The notes under the pieces are model-generated. The model saw only the letters and a list, made by a program, of their open reading frames with translations, searched no databases and was not told the DNA's origin. A program made the translations under genes and the position numbers. Positions 10,051 through 26,962 of a stretch of 27,064 bases of DNA are shown here, piece after piece; within the stretch, counting starts at the first letter, position 1, and each line of letters begins with the position of its first letter. The stretch is taken from assembly GCA_003697105.1 (NCBI GenBank), contig RFFQ01000091.1, positions 1 to 27,064 of the forward strand, given 5' to 3'. The DNA is from Gemmatimonadota bacterium (lineage in GTDB: Bacteria > 4572-55 > J002).

Positions 10051-11631
10051 TCAATTCCACAAATTGAGCCGAAACATAATCCGATAATGGCGAGGCGACA
10101 TGGAATAACCCGAGGTCAAGCGATATGGAGTGTCCAACATATTATACATCTCGTACGCCACCAAAAAATCATAAATTTCTAGGGTTAGACCCGCATTCAT
10201 CACCCAAAATTTGCCCAACCAGTGTTCACCGGTCACATCCGTGTGACGACGGGTGGCAAACTCGCTATCCATAAACGCATGAACCCCCAGACCCTCATTT
10301 AAAAATCGATTTCGATAGTGCCATTCCATGACCCACCGCTGTTTTGGCACATACGGAAGCGGTGTTTTGGAACCGGTATGTTCTGCCCCCGTCAATTGAT
10401 AACCCACGTGTCCCGACCAGACGGAACGCCATGCCACATTCAATTGCACCCCCACACTGCGGATTTTGGCTTGCTGGGACGGATCACGCCGCTCTGTAAA
10501 ATGCACTTCCAGTGCCCGGTAACGGGTTTTCCCATAAATTACCCATTGCGGACGGTCAGAATGCTCGCCCTCAAGAGGTTTTGCATAACTGAGATGGACT
10601 TCCGCCGACCTATCCGGCGGAAAAGCCAGTTGAACGCGGCTGATGGCTCCCAGCCAAGCGGTGCTATCTGTTGCTGCCGGTAAGCGCGTATAAAGGGTGT
10701 GCTGAAATTGAGACCGCTTTCCTCCATCCCACACATGGGCAAGGGAAAATTGGTGCCCATCCAGCGTTGGTTGCCCGGTTGCTTGCGGGTTACGCCAAAA
10801 ACCAGACCCGTCCATCTCCAACGCCTGATGTTTAAACACCGGCTGGCGGAGCGTTATGCGATAGCCCCAGATATGCCGGCGCCCGCCACCGGTATGATCC
10901 GTGTGGTACAAAATCCCGTGTAAGGTCTGTCCAGATGCCAACTGGCCGGTTATCGAGAGATCATAATCTCGCCGGTACACAGATGCCGAGCCCAGTTGAT
11001 GATCGTTAAAAATACGATACCCAAATCTTGTTTGCCATTCCACCGTTGGGCGGTAGTGTAATTGGGCGCCATACCCCCCACCGGTATATTTGGTAGGATG
11101 TCGTTTGAAATTCTCGTCATCATCATACATCCCATAGGCTAACAGATTCCAGCGAGCACTCAGCGGAGTGCCAAAAATAAATCGATACTGCTGGTAATCA
11201 TGCCCGCCTTGTACCATTACTAATTGGGAAAACGGGATTGAATCTGAGTGCGTGCGGGAGGTGAACGCTAAACTCCCCCCCAATGGATTGAGCAGACTCG
11301 GCGCTAGATTCACCACCGCCTTGCTTAGGCTGTTAATGGGCAATTGAAGCACATTGAAATAGGGGTCTGCTTCGGTGGTCAAGGGACGCCCATCCAGCCA
11401 GACCGGTACTGGCGTCCCCAAATAGGTCGGATACTGAGTGTGTTGCCCGTAGCCGTAATCCCGCACATAAACCCACGGCGACGTTCGCAAAAATCTTCCG
11501 GTATTTAGCTTGACGCTCGATTCAATCGGGGTCAATTGGTCGTGTGCCGTTCCCGTATCCATACTCCACGCGAACACACCCGCATGCCACACCAGACCGC
11601 TCAAGACCATCCAAAAAAATAGGGTTTTCAT
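10051..11631 (-). CDS. Outer-membrane beta-barrel with a reduced TonB-receptor-like plug
   Basis: The 526 residues start at ATG 11631 with a signal peptide (MKTLFFWMVLSGLVWHAGVF, cleavage near FAWS). About 35-115 resemble a shortened TonB-receptor plug: LNTGRFLRTSPWVYVRDYGY, VPVWLDGRPLTT and LPINSLSKAVVNLAPSL. The remainder alternates amphipathic strands with aromatic belts (WNLLAYGMYDDD, WQTRFGYRIF, LHGILYHTDH) and ends in the strand MFRLNLWN. No TonB box and no carboxypeptidase-like N-terminal domain are visible, so energised uptake is uncertain. I cannot name the substrate. A TTG at 11670 opens the same frame earlier but coincides with the -35 box of the gene's own promoter, so it is rejected. 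It is co-transcribed with folE2. Confidence 0.8.
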   Translation of the reverse strand: MKTLFFWMVLSGLVWHAGVFAWSMDTGTAHDQLTPIESSVKLNTGRFLRTSPWVYVRDYGYGQHTQYPTYLGTPVPVWLDGRPLTTEADPYFNVLQLPINSLSKAVVNLAPSLLNPLGGSLAFTSRTHSDSIPFSQLVMVQGGHDYQQYRFIFGTPLSARWNLLAYGMYDDDENFKRHPTKYTGGGYGAQLHYRPTVEWQTRFGYRIFNDHQLGSASVYRRDYDLSITGQLASGQTLHGILYHTDHTGGGRRHIWGYRITLRQPVFKHQALEMDGSGFWRNPQATGQPTLDGHQFSLAHVWDGGKRSQFQHTLYTRLPAATDSTAWLGAISRVQLAFPPDRSAEVHLSYAKPLEGEHSDRPQWVIYGKTRYRALEVHFTERRDPSQQAKIRSVGVQLNVAWRSVWSGHVGYQLTGAEHTGSKTPLPYVPKQRWVMEWHYRNRFLNEGLGVHAFMDSEFATRRHTDVTGEHWLGKFWVMNAGLTLEIYDFLVAYEMYNMLDTPYRLTSGYSMSPRHYRIMFRLNLWN

Positions 11632-11641
11632 GGGAAAAACT

Positions 11642-11670
11642 ATTATAAAAAATACGCTGATGGAAGCCAA
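11642..11670 (-). promoter_or_regulatory. Promoter of the barrel/folE2 operon inside the pilT terminator
   Basis: On the minus strand TTGGCT (11670-11665), a 17-base spacer and a perfect TATAAT (11647-11642) form a strong sigma70 match. The spacer is the descending arm of the pilT terminator hairpin and the -35 box is in its loop. The predicted transcript start (about 11635) leaves only about four bases before ATG 11631, and no Shine-Dalgarno sequence is present, so the mRNA would be nearly leaderless. Confidence 0.65.
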
Positions 11671-16544: not shown

Positions 16545-16588
16545 ATAGGCGGATGTCCACAAAATCCAGACCTCAGAGGGGAAAAATC

Positions 16589-19500
16589 ATGCGCAATTTA
16601 ATGCCTCATTTTATTCAAGAACAGGATCAACAGCATCTCACGCAGGGACACTTTGATGCCACTGCAATATTTATCGATATTTCCGGTTTTACTCTGCTTA
16701 CCGAAGAACTCATGAAGTACCAAACGGATGGTGCGGAGGTTCTCACGGGGGTGCTAAACCGTATGTTTAATCCGGTGGTACATACCATTTACCAGCACGG
16801 CGGGATGATCTCCACCTTTGCCGGCGATGCATTCACAGCACTTTTTCCATCGGAAAACGACCGGACACCTCAATACGCGCTTCAAGCCGCGTTGCGGATT
16901 CAGAAATTTTTCGAGGAGCACTCTGCCTTCCCAACCCCGTATGGGACATTTGAGATGGGTGTGAAAATTGGCGTGTCATTTGGTGATGTTCAGTGGGGTA
17001 TTTTAAGTGGCGTTCACCCGACTTCTACCACAGGCGTCCAAAAAACCTATTATTTCCGGGGCGAGGCGATTAAAGGATGTACCGCTGCCGAAAAATATGC
17101 GGAAACCGGCGATGTTATTCTCGACCAAAAGATAATAGATCGGATTCAGACTGACATCCAGACGACCTATCTCCGCTACAACCGGCAAAAATTAATCCAG
17201 TGCCCGGATAACCTACCCCTGAAACCCCCCACGCTACCCACCTTAACGATAGAAACCCTGAGTCAGTACGTTCAGATGAGCGACTTTCCACAACAAGCAG
17301 AGTTTCGGAATGTGTGTAGTGTCTTCATCTCATTTGATGAAAATAGCACTGATGAGGTGCTGAATACATTTGTGGGTAACGTCCTCAATTTAGCAATTAA
17401 CTTTAAGGGTTTTTTTAACAAGATCGATTTTGGAGACAAAGGTGGCGTAATTTTGATCCTATTTGGTGCACCCACTGCCTTTGAGAAAAACGTAGAGCGT
17501 GCGCTGGCATTCATAACCGCCTTGCGGGAGGTTGAATGTGGTTTGCTATGGCGAGCTGGACTCTCTTACGGCATGGCATATACCGGCATTATTGGCGGAA
17601 AAGAACGGTGTGAGTACACCGCCATCGGTGATGCCGTGAATCTTGCCGCCCGGTTCATGATCAAAGCACCCTATGGTGAGGTCTGGCTGACCGAGCGGAT
17701 CCATCGTTACAGCCAGAATCAGTATAAACACGAATTACTGGGTCATTTCCGCTATAAAGGGATTGCGGAACCGGTACCCACCTTTAAGTTAATCGCTAAA
17801 AAAATATCCGATGAAAAAATCTTTGCCGGCAAAATGATCGGGCGTGCCATTGAACTGCAATTGTTGCACCAATACCTCAAGCCACTCTTTCGGGGTGCGT
17901 TTACCGGCATCATCACGATTCACGGTGAGGCGGGCATGGGTAAAAGCCGTCTGATGTACGAATTGAAGCACGAGTTGGGAGATACGGTACAATGGACAGA
18001 ATGCCAACCTGACCCCATCCTCCAAACCTCATTTAACCCCTTTATACAGATGCTACGTCGCGATTTTCAACAAGTGGATAGCGACCCGGAACCAGTACGA
18101 AAGACCAAATTTGAGACCCACTTTGCAAATCGGCTTCGTGCCATCCAAGCGACGGGTGACTATGCAGATATTCACTCGGAATTAGAGCGCACAAAGTCCG
18201 TTTTAGGGGCATTGGTGGGGCTCTCTTGGGATCGTTCACTCTATGCCCAACTGGATGCTCGGGGACGCTATGAAAACACCCTCTCCGCCGTCAAGGCATG
18301 GCTCCTCAGCCAAAGTTTGGTAAACCCCACCGTTCTCCTGATTGAAGATGGGCACAATTTAGACCCCGATTCGTGGACATTGCTTGACCATCTCCTACAC
18401 AACATTGATCACTACCCGCTGGCGATCCTGATGACATTGCGTTATAACGATGATGGTAGCCGAATACCATTGAAAACCCACCAACCCCTTGAACATACCA
18501 TCGACCTGAAACCCCTTTCCAAGGCAGAACTTTACGAACTGGCTGAAGATGGACTCGGTAACCCGATCAGTGAGGCGTTTCATCAGGTGTTATTTGAGCG
18601 CACCAAAGCAAATCCCTTTTTCGCCCAACAATTTTTACAATATCTTGCGGAAAATGCTTGGATTGAACTCCGGGAGAACGTGTGGGAATTGACCACTACC
18701 TCTATGGACGTCCCGGATACCATTCGTGCCATTCTGATTGCTCGTTTAGACCGCTTGAGCCCGCCCGTACGGGAAATTGTGAAAACCGCAACCACCTTCG
18801 GTATGCAATTCGAGCCGCTCCTGCTACGCTTGGCATTGGAAAAATCCAACCCCAATTTTAACCCAAAAGATTTTTACACCTATCTAACGACCGCCGAACA
18901 AGAGCGGATTTGGACGTCCATCACGAATCAGAAATATCTCTTCAACAGTGAATTAATGCGGGATTCCATTTATTCCATGCAAATGGGTGAAAAACGGCGC
19001 GAATTTCATCGCCAAATTGTAGAAGTCATGGAAGAATTGGGACGGCAAGATGAGGAGCATTATTCGGAGTTGGCATTCCACTGCGAAAAGGCAGAATTGA
19101 CCGAAAAAGCCCTTTTTTACCTCGAAAAAGCGGCAAATAGTGCCAAAGCGCAATATCAACACCAACAGGCACTCAAATTTTATCATCGTATTTTAAACCT
19201 GATCACTCCAAACGTTCACCGCCGATTACACTTGCGAACATTGCTCCAGTTAAGTGAAATTGAGAAGTTAACCGGAAACTGGGAAGAAAGCCGCAACCGG
19301 TTACAACTCATCTTGGAATTGACCGGAGATGGCAACCCCCCTTATATTCGCGCACAAGCTCTTTCCCGGCTCGGTGACCTCGCCCTAGACCGCAGTGAAT
19401 ATGAAGAAAGCACCGCATATTACGAACAGGCATGCGCCCTGTTTGACCCCTATGACCACCATCATGATCTCGCCGAAGCTATCGGCCGGCTCGGTGAAAT

Positions 19501-20455
19501 TCAGTACCGGAAAAGCCAGTTTGACGCCGCCTTACACCGGTATCGGGAATCACTGGAAATTTGTAAAAAGTTTAATGATAACACCGGTATTGTCAGCACG
19601 TTACTAAATATGAGCAACGTTGCGGCACATCAGGGTGAATATGGGCAAGCAATGGCGTATTTGGAAGAATGTCTTGAATTAAGTGAAGCCACCGGTGATA
19701 AACGCCGGATGGCAATTGTCCTCGGTAATATGGGTGCCATTCAAGGTATGCAGGGGAATCCACAAGGCGCAATGCCCTATCTTCAGCAAAACTTGCAACT
19801 CAGTGAGGAATTAGGCGATAAAAAAACCATTTCGCGGGTGTGCGGTAATATTGGCGCGGTTTACCAGATGCAACAAAAATATGAACTCGCGCTACTGTAC
19901 TATCAAAAACGGCTCAAAATGGATGAAGAACTCGGCAACCGGCGCGGTATTGCTTTTGTCTGTAACGGGATCGGGGCAGTTTATCGGGAACAAGGTAAAC
20001 TGGATGATGCCTTGTTGTACCACCAACGGGCGCTCGCTATCGATACCGCCATTGGCAATAAACAAGGCGTTGCTATCGGGATGGCAGATAGTGGGCGAAT
20101 TTACCAGTTGAAACAAGAGTACGACCACGCTTTGCATTATTACGATAAAGCGATACAACTGGCGCAGGAAATTCAGTTTCAATGGCTGTTGCCGGCGGTG
20201 TATATCCATAAAGCAGAAACACTCTACCACCAGAAACAATTCCCCCGCGCCAAAGAGATCGTCACCCAAGGGTTAGCACTGGCTCAAAAATACCGCCCGG
20301 AACGCCTTTTTGCCGGAAATGTGATCTCTGCCCAGATTGATTTTGCCCAAGGTGACCCGGATTTTGCCCGAACGCAAATCCAACACATGCGCCAGCAGAC
20401 CAGTGACCCGGAACAAATACGTCTATTAGATGCCCTGTTGGAGGAAATGCAATGA
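16589..20455 (+). CDS. Soluble adenylyl cyclase-like protein: two cyclase domains, AAA-type ATPase, TPR
   Basis: The 1288 residues follow the order of mammalian soluble adenylyl cyclase (ADCY10). C1 covers about 22-185: FIDISGFTLLTEEL with metal Asp30 and GGMISTFAGDAFTALF with metal Asp80. C2 covers about 240-400: DKGGVILILFGAP with adenine-specifying Lys284, and RCEYTAIGDAVNLAARFM with Thr344, Asn351 and Arg355. Together they make one complete cyclase site at the interface. An ATPase of AAA/STAND type follows, with Walker A GEAGMGKSR (446-454) and Walker B-like VLLIEDGH (about 582-589). The last 430 residues are TPRs of about 40 residues with kinesin-light-chain-like pattern (GNIGAVYQMQQKYELALLYY). 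The expected product is cAMP from ATP. The bicarbonate-contacting residues of the human enzyme appear substituted. No membrane segment is seen. The start follows a good ribosome site, and the stop overlaps the next gene as ATGA. Confidence 0.88.
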   Translation: MRNLMPHFIQEQDQQHLTQGHFDATAIFIDISGFTLLTEELMKYQTDGAEVLTGVLNRMFNPVVHTIYQHGGMISTFAGDAFTALFPSENDRTPQYALQAALRIQKFFEEHSAFPTPYGTFEMGVKIGVSFGDVQWGILSGVHPTSTTGVQKTYYFRGEAIKGCTAAEKYAETGDVILDQKIIDRIQTDIQTTYLRYNRQKLIQCPDNLPLKPPTLPTLTIETLSQYVQMSDFPQQAEFRNVCSVFISFDENSTDEVLNTFVGNVLNLAINFKGFFNKIDFGDKGGVILILFGAPTAFEKNVERALAFITALREVECGLLWRAGLSYGMAYTGIIGGKERCEYTAIGDAVNLAARFMIKAPYGEVWLTERIHRYSQNQYKHELLGHFRYKGIAEPVPTFKLIAKKISDEKIFAGKMIGRAIELQLLHQYLKPLFRGAFTGIITIHGEAGMGKSRLMYELKHELGDTVQWTECQPDPILQTSFNPFIQMLRRDFQQVDSDPEPVRKTKFETHFANRLRAIQATGDYADIHSELERTKSVLGALVGLSWDRSLYAQLDARGRYENTLSAVKAWLLSQSLVNPTVLLIEDGHNLDPDSWTLLDHLLHNIDHYPLAILMTLRYNDDGSRIPLKTHQPLEHTIDLKPLSKAELYELAEDGLGNPISEAFHQVLFERTKANPFFAQQFLQYLAENAWIELRENVWELTTTSMDVPDTIRAILIARLDRLSPPVREIVKTATTFGMQFEPLLLRLALEKSNPNFNPKDFYTYLTTAEQERIWTSITNQKYLFNSELMRDSIYSMQMGEKRREFHRQIVEVMEELGRQDEEHYSELAFHCEKAELTEKALFYLEKAANSAKAQYQHQQALKFYHRILNLITPNVHRRLHLRTLLQLSEIEKLTGNWEESRNRLQLILELTGDGNPPYIRAQALSRLGDLALDRSEYEESTAYYEQACALFDPYDHHHDLAEAIGRLGEIQYRKSQFDAALHRYRESLEICKKFNDNTGIVSTLLNMSNVAAHQGEYGQAMAYLEECLELSEATGDKRRMAIVLGNMGAIQGMQGNPQGAMPYLQQNLQLSEELGDKKTISRVCGNIGAVYQMQQKYELALLYYQKRLKMDEELGNRRGIAFVCNGIGAVYREQGKLDDALLYHQRALAIDTAIGNKQGVAIGMADSGRIYQLKQEYDHALHYYDKAIQLAQEIQFQWLLPAVYIHKAETLYHQKQFPRAKEIVTQGLALAQKYRPERLFAGNVISAQIDFAQGDPDFARTQIQHMRQQTSDPEQIRLLDALLEEMQ

Positions 20456-21315
20456 AACCATGTGCCTTTTTAACGATGGACAGCCTGACCGGCTATGTCT
20501 GTTACGACCATTACCTCTACGAGCCTTTCCAAAAACGGGGGTGGCAGGTGACCCCCATTTCGTGGCGAACAGCCAATGTCCATTGGGATGATTTTAGGGT
20601 GGTGGTGATTCGCTCTCCGTGGGATTACCAGACCGATCCCGCACGATTTTTGAAGGTGTTGGAGGAGATTGATCAGTCTGCCGCACGGTTGGAAAATCCG
20701 TTGAATATTGTCCATTGGAACTTGAACAAACGTTATCTAGCGGATTTGGCGGAAAAGGGCATCCCCATTGTCCCCACCGGATGGGAAACCACATTTGATG
20801 CAAGTCGAGTCGTAACATACTTTGAGACATTCGACAGCACCGAAATTATCATCAAGCCGGTGGTCAGCGCCAATGCAGATAATACCTTCCGTTTGAGCCA
20901 GAACAGGTTTGAACCCGAATTGCCACGGTTACAATCCACATTTGCCACGCGAGACTTCATGGTACAACCATTCCGGGATCATATCCTCCATGAGGGGGAA
21001 TTTTCGCTTTTCTTTTTTGGAGGGGAATATAGCCATACCATCCTTAAAACACCGAAACCCAACGATTTTCGGGTGCAAGAGGAACATGGCGGTCGCCTGC
21101 GCACCATTGACCCCGAAGATAAACTACTGCAACGTGCCACCGAAACTCTTGCCCAGATTCCACCGTTGCTTTACGCTCGCCTCGATTTTGTCCGCCATGC
21201 CGGTGATTTTGAACTAATGGAATTGGAGCTGATCGAACCCTCACTCTATTTCAACATGGATGCGAACTCGGCAGAACGCTTTGCGGATGTATTCGTGCGG
21301 TGGGTGGAACGGTAA
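20452..21315 (+). CDS. ATP-grasp ligase of unknown substrate, coupled to the cyclase
   Basis: The 287 residues are an ATP-grasp enzyme, which joins a carboxylate to an amine or thiol by an acyl-phosphate. Seen features are VVVIRSPWDYQTDPARFLKV (about 45-64), NIVHWNLNKRYLADLAEKGI (84-103), IIIKPVVSANADNTFRL (the nucleotide Lys and loop), EGEFSLFFFGGEYSHTILKT, FRVQEEHGG, ARLDFVRHAGDFELMELELI and EPSLYF (metal Glu/Asn region). This family is widespread and mostly uncharacterised; the closest named member I recall is the D-cycloserine ligase DcsG. The start ATG overlaps the cyclase stop (ATGA), implying translational coupling. No other antibiotic or peptide biosynthesis gene is adjacent. Confidence 0.8.
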   Translation: MKPCAFLTMDSLTGYVCYDHYLYEPFQKRGWQVTPISWRTANVHWDDFRVVVIRSPWDYQTDPARFLKVLEEIDQSAARLENPLNIVHWNLNKRYLADLAEKGIPIVPTGWETTFDASRVVTYFETFDSTEIIIKPVVSANADNTFRLSQNRFEPELPRLQSTFATRDFMVQPFRDHILHEGEFSLFFFGGEYSHTILKTPKPNDFRVQEEHGGRLRTIDPEDKLLQRATETLAQIPPLLYARLDFVRHAGDFELMELELIEPSLYFNMDANSAERFADVFVRWVER

Positions 21316-23658: not shown

Positions 23659-25425
23659 ATGGCAAACAAACCTCTTTTTCATGAGCGAATCAATCGCACT
23701 GTAACGGATGAGCAAGGTAAACAGTATGTTCAAATTCGGCATGAAAACCGGTTTTATAAGGTGGAATTTGTGGAGACCGAAGCCGAACTAAACAGCATTA
23801 AGACCTTAAATCAAGAGATTTTTACTGGGCACCAATCCTTAACCTACCGCCAGTTGATGAATCTGATCGGGCATGGCAAAGCCTTGATTATCCGCGATGA
23901 TGCGGGGGCAATCGTTGCAAAATCACTGATTTTATTAGAACCGGTTGATGACCCGGACGTAAAACTTGCCCCGAAAATCAATCCGCGTTTAGCCACGGGC
24001 GAGGCATACACCTACGAAATTTTTATTCTAGATGAGAGTATCCACCTTCACTACTTTTTTGTGTTACTGAAAGCACAAAAGGTGATTGCGTTGGAAGCCG
24101 GCAAGAAAAAGATGTTTTTACCGGTGAAATTTGACAATGTGGGCGGTATCCGTGACCGGATTGAGGAAGGATTCCGTATTACCGGTTATGATGCGAACTG
24201 GTATCCCGCTGAGGAGAGCGGTGAGCGGGAACGGCTGATCATGGAATGCGACTTGATTAATGACCCCCTGCCGTTCGATCCCATTGGTAAAAGCCTCCGG
24301 CTAGAACAAGAGCGGATTCCCGTCATCCGTACGGTGACCGATAAGCACGTGATATTAGCCATGCGCCCCGTAGAACTGGCAATACCCATCTCCTCTAGTT
24401 TAGAAATGGATAATCTGGCACGAGACGCTATCGAACAAACACTCCTCTCCGGGTACATCGGCACCGGTTTGCTGTTAGCCGATGAGTACGGCCATACCCT
24501 ACCGGGGCAAAATCTGTTAATCTTCCACAAAAACGATGACTATTATCCACCAGATTCACTCTTCTACGATCCGCACGTCACCACGGAATACGGACGCTTA
24601 CGAGAAGTCATCGTCTGTTACCCGCCCGAAACGGCACAAATCGACCCGGAGGACGTGATCAACGACATCCAAAAATTGAATGTGGGCAATGTGGATACCA
24701 TAGCTTACAAAGAGGAATACCAGCAGTTTGTCCGTACCTTGCAGGAACACGACGTGCATATTGTGCGCACCAATGTGGTCGGCAAAGGGGGTAAAACCGT
24801 GGTTTTCACCCGCGATCCCGCAGTGACCATTGGCAATACATTCGTTGTTGGGCGGTTGGCAAAGGAGCAACGCACCTACGAAACCAACGGCATGATCCGT
24901 ACGGCGCGGGGTAAAAAAATGGTGGTTTTGCTGGATGACGCCGAGGCGATTATCGAAGGTGGTGATGTCATTTTTATCGGCGATAAAAAATTAGCGGTCG
25001 GGCTGGGTCAACGCACCACTCCGGCGGGCTTGCAACGCTTGCAAGAAACATTTCCGGACTACGAATTTATCGGGGTGGTACATCAGGAACTTCATCTGGA
25101 TGTGCTGTTTACCGTTTTGGGCGAAAAAACATGCTTGCTGGATGTGACCCGCCTACCCGAAAGCTTCATCGAACGACTGAAAGATGAAGGATACCAGATG
25201 GTTATCGCCGAACCCTCGGAACAGGTCACGCTCGGTTGTAACGTCGTCTGTTTGGATAACAACAAAGTGATTGCCGTTGCCGAGAACCCCATCACCAACC
25301 AACGGCTACGCGATGCCGGAATTGAGGTGATCGAAGTCAGTATGCCCAACATCATCAAAAACGGTGGCGGTCCGCGGTGTATGACGTGCCCCACCTTCCG
25401 GGAAGACTCAGATGTCCATCCCTAA
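23659..25425 (+). CDS. Fusion of a GNAT-like N-terminus with a C-terminal arginine deiminase-like (GME) domain
   Basis: ATG 23659 follows AAGGAAG; the frame opens 38 codons earlier but that part reads like non-coding sequence. Of 588 residues, about 30-200 look like an N-acyltransferase of GNAT type (FVETEAELNSIKTLNQEIFT, KALIIRDDAGAIVAKSLILL, YTYEIFILDESIHLHYFF). About 205-300 are unassigned. About 300-588 form an amidinotransferase-superfamily hydrolase with its full catalytic set: Asp386 in VFTRDPAV, EGGD (433-436), His479 and Asp481 in HLDVLF, and Cys574 in GGGPRCMTCP. Such domains attack the guanidinium carbon of arginine or methylarginine, releasing ammonia, an amine or an amidino group. 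The substrate cannot be told. The fusion suggests a pathway acting on an acylated or acyl-linked arginine-like compound. Confidence 0.75.
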   Translation: MANKPLFHERINRTVTDEQGKQYVQIRHENRFYKVEFVETEAELNSIKTLNQEIFTGHQSLTYRQLMNLIGHGKALIIRDDAGAIVAKSLILLEPVDDPDVKLAPKINPRLATGEAYTYEIFILDESIHLHYFFVLLKAQKVIALEAGKKKMFLPVKFDNVGGIRDRIEEGFRITGYDANWYPAEESGERERLIMECDLINDPLPFDPIGKSLRLEQERIPVIRTVTDKHVILAMRPVELAIPISSSLEMDNLARDAIEQTLLSGYIGTGLLLADEYGHTLPGQNLLIFHKNDDYYPPDSLFYDPHVTTEYGRLREVIVCYPPETAQIDPEDVINDIQKLNVGNVDTIAYKEEYQQFVRTLQEHDVHIVRTNVVGKGGKTVVFTRDPAVTIGNTFVVGRLAKEQRTYETNGMIRTARGKKMVVLLDDAEAIIEGGDVIFIGDKKLAVGLGQRTTPAGLQRLQETFPDYEFIGVVHQELHLDVLFTVLGEKTCLLDVTRLPESFIERLKDEGYQMVIAEPSEQVTLGCNVVCLDNNKVIAVAENPITNQRLRDAGIEVIEVSMPNIIKNGGGPRCMTCPTFREDSDVHP

Positions 25426-25505: not shown

Positions 25506-25922
25506 ATGTACATCTATCACACCAGCATCAAATTGCATGATACCGATGCTGCCGGACTGCTCTTTTTTGCCAATCAGTTTAAACTGGCACATGACGCTTA
25601 TGAGACCTTCTTTAACGCCCTCGGTTTTAATTTGGGCAAGATGATCCAATCCGGTACGTTTGTTCTGCCAATTGTCCATGCCGATGCCGATTTTACTGCC
25701 CCGCTCTTTGTTGGAGACCGGGTCGGAATCCGCATCCATTTGGGAAAAGTGGGACGAAGTTCTTTTACGCTGCTGTACGATATTCTGCGTGAAACCGGAG
25801 AGACCGTCGGGCGAGTGAAAACCGTTCATGTGGCAATCGATAAACAGACACGGGAAAAAATCGAGCTTCCGGAGCGTCTCAAAATGGCACTGATGACGGG
25901 CGGGGAATCCCTTCCGGAATGA
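25506..25922 (+). CDS. 4HBT-family acyl-CoA thioesterase
   Basis: This is a hotdog-fold thioesterase of 138 residues, the usual size for the YbgC/4-hydroxybenzoyl-CoA/DHNA-CoA group. The N-terminal HDTDAAGLLFFANQFKLAHD carries the active-site Asp (D14 of TDAAG); FTAPLFVGDRVGIRIHLGKV is the central strand pair. Members hydrolyse acyl-CoAs such as 1,4-dihydroxy-2-naphthoyl-CoA or short-chain acyl-CoA. The substrate is not evident. GGAGA precedes the ATG. It follows the acyltransferase/deiminase fusion by 80 bases, in which a weak promoter-like TTTACC-16-TATAAC is seen, so the link to acyl chemistry may be chance. Confidence 0.85.
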   Translation: MYIYHTSIKLHDTDAAGLLFFANQFKLAHDAYETFFNALGFNLGKMIQSGTFVLPIVHADADFTAPLFVGDRVGIRIHLGKVGRSSFTLLYDILRETGETVGRVKTVHVAIDKQTREKIELPERLKMALMTGGESLPE

Positions 25923-25983
25923 GAAAAAGAACTGGTTTTACATGGCATTTTAGTTGCAGGTTCCTTCCAAGGTTCATAGCAAA

Positions 25984-26013
25984 TTGGGCGCGTTCAATAC
26001 CAACAAATAGAAT
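25984..26013 (+). promoter_or_regulatory. Possible promoter of the PhnD-like lipoprotein
   Basis: TTGGGC (25984-25989), an 18-base spacer and TAGAAT (26008-26013) lie before the lipoprotein gene with a predicted leader of about 22 bases that contains its AAGGAG site. The match is moderate. Confidence 0.4.
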
Positions 26014-26041
26014 GACCAATCACCCCTCACAAGGAGCCACG

Positions 26042-26962
26042 ATGATGAACCGAGTCGGATTCGGAACATTACTCATGTGCACTCTGCTTATTGGATGCCA
26101 GCCCCTAGACACGAAACAATATAAAGAGGTAAACCTCAACGATCAGTTTACCTATTCTGAGAACCATCGATCGACACCTGCAGAATACCATCCAGACCAG
26201 TGGGTGATTGCGATTGCTTCGATTGTCTCAGCAAATGAAAGCTTCTCGGCATATGATGAACTGATCCAGTATATTGGGCTCAAACTTGGACAGCCCACCC
26301 GAGCGGTCTATACCAAAGATTACAGCGAGGTTTATACCCTTTTTAAAGAGCACAAAGTTGATGCGGCATTTATCTGTTCTGGGCTTTATATTATCGGTAA
26401 GAAACATCAGCTCATGGAATTACTTACAGTACCAGTTGTCAATGGAGCTCCAACTTACCAGGCGTATATTATCGTGCCCCGTACCTCTTCCATCCAACAG
26501 TTTGAAGAACTCGACCAAAAAACATTTGCTTTTACCGATAGACTCTCGCTAACAGGGTGCTTTTACCCGTTATATGGACACCAGCAACCCCTTACCTTTT
26601 GGAAAAAAGTTATTTTTACCGGAAACCATGATGCATCAATTGAGTTAGTCAACCGGGGGATTATTGATGGAGCCAGTGTGGACGGGTTAGTGTTTGAAGA
26701 TATCGCCCGGAATGACCCGTCACGAGTACAAAATATTCGTATTCTGGAGAAGTCCGAACCTTTCGGTATCCCCCCGGTGGTCGTTCATCCGAACGTGGGA
26801 AAAACCAATAAGCGCCTACTGCAACAGGTGTTTTTGCAGATGGATCACGATTCAACCGGGCAAAATATTCTTCGCAAAATCCATATCGATCATTTTCAAC
26901 TTCCTGATGAAACGCTCTATGAAACGTTGGAATCAATGGTGCCGGACTCTATTATCCCGTAA
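26042..26962 (+). CDS. PhnD-like periplasmic binding lipoprotein
   Basis: The 306 residues start at ATG 26042 after AAGGAG; the upstream open frame has no such site and lacks a signal. The N-terminus MMNRVGFGTLLMCTLLIGC is a lipoprotein signal with lipobox LLIG-Cys19. The rest is a type II periplasmic-binding fold of the PhnD/SsuA group: AYDELIQYIGLKLGQPTRAV, YSEVYTLFKEHKVDAAFICS, YQAYIIVPRTSSIQQFEELD, FAFTDRLSLTGCFYPLYG, and GIIDGASVDGLVFEDIA. Known members bind phosphonate, phosphite or related anions, but many act as sensory inputs. No ABC transporter gene follows; instead the gene overlaps a membrane protein start by 44 bases. Confidence 0.88.
   Translation: MMNRVGFGTLLMCTLLIGCQPLDTKQYKEVNLNDQFTYSENHRSTPAEYHPDQWVIAIASIVSANESFSAYDELIQYIGLKLGQPTRAVYTKDYSEVYTLFKEHKVDAAFICSGLYIIGKKHQLMELLTVPVVNGAPTYQAYIIVPRTSSIQQFEELDQKTFAFTDRLSLTGCFYPLYGHQQPLTFWKKVIFTGNHDASIELVNRGIIDGASVDGLVFEDIARNDPSRVQNIRILEKSEPFGIPPVVVHPNVGKTNKRLLQQVFLQMDHDSTGQNILRKIHIDHFQLPDETLYETLESMVPDSIIP

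Follow-up and report, generated by a model that had tools for sequence, protein, structure and literature searches.

A predicted guanidino-group hydrolase with an orphan N-terminal half in a Gemmatimonadota genome

The window analyzed here, a stretch of 27,064 nucleotides from contig RFFQ01000091.1 of a Gemmatimonadota bacterium (GenBank assembly GCA_003697105.1), carries a gene for a 588-residue protein in which an orphan N-terminal half precedes a hydrolase domain of the ADI/DDAH type (positions 23659..25425, + strand). The gene is a single unbroken open reading frame, and AAGGAAG lies a few bases 5′ of its ATG at 23659. In frame 1 the codon score is above zero in every segment (0.35 for residues 1–214, 0.19 for residues 215–305 and 0.35 for residues 306–588), is similar to that of the neighboring genes and clearly exceeds that of the other frames, and the stretch that follows an alternative upstream TTG (23545) scores below zero and is not coding-like. 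Since all segments show coding-like use in one frame and the TTG stretch does not, the protein is most likely the product of one real gene that starts at this ATG, and the coordinates proposed in an earlier note on this DNA stand.

Eighty bases 3′ of the hydrolase gene, and on the same strand, begins the gene for a 4HBT-type acyl-CoA thioesterase (25506..25922, +; Pfam 4HBT_2, E=3.3e-15; MenI/YbgC-like by NCBIfam, below the cut-off), a possible co-transcribed neighbor. It is followed by the gene for a phosphonate-type substrate-binding lipoprotein (25919..26962, +; Pfam Phosphonate-bd, E=6.3e-49), whose listed start is likely too early, the true one lying near 26042 or 26045, where either ATG gives a lipoprotein signal with an LLIGC lipobox. 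These three genes all lie on one strand and reach nearly to the end of the contig; upstream, a fused TRAP transporter permease is encoded on the opposite strand. The neighboring genes name no pathway, and no riboswitch or other RNA family was found around the hydrolase gene. Elsewhere in the window, the gene for a 1300-residue protein that matches nucleotide-cyclase, AAA and TPR families (16553–20455, +) shares 4 nt with the gene for an ATP-grasp protein similar to the D-cycloserine synthetase DcsG (20452–21315, +; 174 bits against a cut-off of 360), an arrangement that looks like translational coupling, and a 539-residue protein with no Pfam or PHROG match (10054–11670, −) is encoded in a gene flanked by folE2 and by that of a T2SSE-type ATPase.

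The C-terminal half of the protein (residues 306–588; 24574..25422, +) can be assigned firmly, by sequence, to the guanidino-group hydrolases of the ADI/DDAH superfamily. It matches the Pfam ADI family PF02274 with E=1.3e-32 and 113.7 bits, against a gathering cut-off of 22.8, and Pfam DDAH_eukar with 77.7 bits, against a cut-off near 23, and its sequence relatives with solved structures are arginine deiminases, DDAH, ArgZ/AgrE and the 2-nitroimidazole nitrohydrolase NnhA. The catalytic and substrate residues are all kept: FTRD386, EGGD at 433–436, R452, HLD at 479–481 and C574. In a 51-row alignment, C574, G434 and R452 are conserved in every row, H479 in 50, D386 in 47, E433 in 44 and D481 in 23; four rows, among them an ArgZ-like protein (L040), have asparagine at position 386. 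The catalytic residues named in the earlier note (Asp386, EGGD, His479 and Cys574) thus fall at ADI/DDAH-type positions. A Cys-His-Glu mechanism has been described for ADI and DDAH (PMC11659421), and enzymes with guanidino substrates carry a pair of substrate aspartates where the citrullinase CtlX has asparagines, in FPNN and HTN (PMC9007349). Both aspartates are present here, in contrast to CtlX, D386 in FTRD and D481 in HLD, and would favor a guanidino substrate. The arginine-deiminase-type half is probably active.

Every NCBIfam equivalog model, those for ArcA, DDAH and ArgZ included, scores the domain far below its cut-off. In a tree of the 51 rows, residues 306–588 form an isolated, long terminal branch (1.39) that no strongly supported group encloses, and their identity to the other rows is at most 32% over aligned columns. 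These three observations indicate a divergent member of the superfamily whose sequence cannot name its substrate. The same genome encodes a second, stand-alone DDAH-like protein of 263 residues (L006 and L011; G000:C178:10700-11380), which has HLK in place of HLD and groups with another clade in the tree.

The N-terminal half is of another character. Neither residues 1–214 (23659..24300, +) nor the middle segment of residues 215–305 (24301..24573, +) gave a meaningful match in Pfam, NCBIfam, PHROG or PDB sequences up to E 10, the sole PHROG match of the middle segment having an E-value of 0.046. None of the Pfam or NCBIfam matches up to E 10 was to a GNAT family, the arginine N-succinyltransferase AstA (PF04958) was absent among the Pfam matches up to the same value, and the protein matched no defence family. 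Residues 1–214 also gave no score against a GNAT profile built here from 14 plasmid-borne RimJ-like proteins, which represent one subfamily and which, matching by construction, themselves score 149–221 bits. Alignment of residues 1–214 to the GNAT profile with hhalign gave a probability of 0.4%, inside the range of 60 shuffles, where a true GNAT left out as a control gave 99.5%. The "GNAT-like start" of the earlier note is therefore not a recognizable match, and its middle part of about 95 unassigned residues, which indeed matches no recognized family, proves too small, as the unmatched region comprises all of residues 1–305.

What resemblance to GNATs there is lies in one stretch of sequence and in hints from low-confidence models. 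Residues 154–172, LPVKFDNVGGIRDRIEEGF, follow the pattern L-x-V-x3-N-x2-G-x7-GF (LPVKFDN..G.......GF), a layout also known from motif B of GNATs. When the segment is shuffled, the full pattern arises in 0.05% of cases and its shorter core in 1%, both patterns having been chosen after the sequence was seen, and the full pattern is absent in the RimJ-like control GNATs. In all nine control GNATs in which both loop and motif were found, the distance from the end of the acyl-CoA loop to the motif asparagine is exactly 28 residues; the corresponding position here (residues 124–136, LDESIHLHYFFVL) contains no glycine, and the pyrophosphate loop Q/R-x-x-G-x-G/A, which marks the start of helix 3, occurs nowhere in residues 1–214. 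With this glycine-containing loop missing, CoA-dependent acyl transfer of the usual kind is unlikely.

Single-sequence AlphaFold models of the N-terminal half, for which no relatives were found to align, are too poor to rely on (pLDDT 33.5 for residues 1–306 and 40.2 for residues 1–214). The model of residues 1–214 runs strand, helix, helix, strand, strand, strand, strand, helix, strand, which at this low confidence is the element order of a GNAT except that the third helix is modeled as a strand. The top Foldseek match of this low-confidence model is the GNAT 4zm6, at a non-significant E-value of 0.47 (probability 0.72); GNATs make up 7 of 50 Foldseek rows, none significant, and 11 of 50 VIA-align rows, all with Z below 5. 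Such fold matches are hints only. Taking together the element order, the motif-B-like stretch and the excess of GNATs among weak fold matches, we consider a GNAT origin of the N-terminal half plausible but unproven, and the acyltransferase half of the earlier note would be, at best, a degenerate GNAT.

Searches for the same domain order found no other protein with this layout. Outside its own genome, neither the fusion nor any relative of the N-terminal half turned up in about 1,140 distinct genomes from many phyla, a sample in which some large phyla may be thinly covered and an empty result, having no positive control beside it, shows little, and fusions may exist in groups outside it; the N-terminal half alone served as the query in part of these searches, and 276 genomes were covered twice. 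The fusion was likewise absent from the one other genome of the same phylum that was searched, neither it nor the N-terminal half occurred in the plasmids, phages and viral contigs searched, and a scan of genome contigs for exact short peptides, which reaches close relatives only, found no relative. Several long frames that were inspected around other ADI matches, such as one of 627 residues (L039), were read-through upstream of an ordinary enzyme, and further frames of 506–1612 residues lie outside that inspection. A literature search found no described fusion of a GNAT with a guanidino hydrolase. The architecture thus appears to be new among the genomes searched.

We suggest, with somewhat better than even confidence, that the protein is a guanidine hydrolase with an orphan N-terminal half that is probably regulatory or serves in assembly. 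In such an enzyme C574 would attack the guanidine carbon of an arginine-like compound to form a covalent intermediate, from which ammonia or an amine would leave, and H479, paired with E433, would then activate a water molecule so that a citrulline-like product is released. D386 and D481 would hold the guanidine, and R452, together with R405 by its position, would suit the binding of a carboxylate. Residues 1–305 would then probably be a ligand-binding, regulatory or assembly module and not a second working enzyme; should they derive from a GNAT, the loss of the acyl-CoA loop makes such a module the more likely. The analysis itself shows the hydrolase domain, its residues, the missing loop and the absence of relatives in what was searched; what the enzyme does, on which substrate, and what its N-terminal half is for are what we infer, and regulation by residues 1–305 is our default assignment. 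Two points run against this explanation: the neighboring thioesterase could hint at acyl chemistry, and NnhA, a member of the same superfamily that acts on non-guanidine compounds, shows how far the superfamily reaches.

Other readings place the two halves in a different relation. The earlier note proposed acyl transfer to, and hydrolysis of, an arginine-like group in one enzyme, possibly as a new modification pathway, and such a protein, its N-terminal half acylating an arginine-like compound and its C-terminal half hydrolyzing the guanidine, would correspond, in a single chain, to the two opening steps of the arginine succinyltransferase pathway, which are carried out by AstA, of GNAT-like fold, and AstB, of guanidino-hydrolase-type fold. 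The GNAT-like spacing of motif B, the over-representation of GNATs among weak fold matches and the thioesterase gene directly 3′ all speak for it; the lack of any GNAT or AstA profile match up to E 10, the absence of a glycine loop where nine of nine control GNATs have it and an hhalign result no better than shuffles speak against it, and we regard it as improbable. Of the proposal, then, the hydrolysis half is borne out by the Pfam ADI match and the conserved residues, the acyl half has neither profile match nor loop behind it, and a joint pathway finds support on the hydrolytic side only. Still less probable, in our estimate, is a single chain whose strongly diverged GNAT-fold domain uses a donor other than the usual acyl-CoA, such as an acyl carrier protein, to modify an arginine-like compound that the C-terminal hydrolase then cleaves; if true, this would be a new route of arginine-type modification or breakdown.

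The N-terminal half may instead be unrelated to GNATs and consist of one or more unrecognized domains, for example a substrate-binding or oligomerization module. Neither the libraries nor the custom profile gave any GNAT signal at the sequence level, and the structural hints come only from low-confidence models; set against this are the complete motif signature, rare in shuffles if post hoc, the element order of the 214-residue model, GNAT-like but for helix 3, and the GNAT excess among weak fold matches, and we hold this reading to be doubtful, though less so than either acyl-transfer scheme. The least probable of the alternatives is an artefact of assembly or frameshift by which two genes were fused in the draft. 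The occurrence of the layout in one genome only, a draft of 199 contigs, would fit such an error, but the frame is continuous, both halves are coding-like in that one frame, and no sign of a junction is visible in the sequence.

If the preferred reading is correct, a hydrolase with a regulatory or assembly module, then what is new is the architecture, the kind of enzyme being already known. Most known guanidino hydrolases are single-domain enzymes, and the documented fusions that can be named (ArgZ/AgrE) carry a cyclodeaminase. A deep-branching hydrolase with an orphan front half of 300 residues, from a phylum with one other genome in the set searched, is a concrete target in the search for new partner domains that regulate the enzyme or supply its substrate.

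The nearest matches to the hydrolase domain are stand-alone enzymes of about 285–340 residues. Among the ADI/DDAH-family enzymes of this kind, those of Bacillus velezensis (WP_025649646, L013) and Enterococcus mundtii (WP_071868020, L012) are 31–33% identical to it and share its length and its motifs (FTRD/FARD, EGGD, HLD and the cysteine), but at about 285–293 residues they lack the 300-residue N-terminal half. The E. mundtii enzyme, the closest plasmid relative, is encoded near genes for an ornithine carbamoyltransferase and a YfcC transporter in what looks like an operon, as in arginine breakdown. In B. velezensis (L013:2615-4828), the neighbors of the hydrolase gene include separate genes for a GNAT and a thioesterase and two for SMR transporters, a mix that partly echoes the GNAT-like half and thioesterase neighbor described here and that may be coincidence. 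ArcA (TIGR01078) has in common with the domain the catalytic motifs and the C-terminal region GGPRCM, but the equivalog scores it at 98.4 bits against a cut-off of 489.1, ArcA has about 408 residues to the domain's 283 or so, its extra length being missing here, and arcBC-like neighbors are not found in this window. The dimethylargininases (DDAH) are alike in domain length and catalytic residues, yet NF045658, NF045659 and NF045660 give 48.7 to 67.7 bits against cut-offs of 300 to 450 (67.7 against 340 for NF045660). ArgZ/AgrE (NF052231; PDB 6lrf, 6juy) is likewise a fusion with a guanidino-hydrolase domain, but its partner is a C-terminal ornithine cyclodeaminase, whereas the protein described here ends 14 residues after C574 with no such Pfam match; NF052231 scores 38 bits against a cut-off of 1025, and the dihydrolase-like rows have asparagine where this protein has D386. 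With the GNAT acyltransferases, finally, the N-terminal half shares a motif-B-like stretch and, in a low-confidence model, an approximate order of elements, and it differs from them in matching no profile of theirs and in lacking their acyl-CoA loop.
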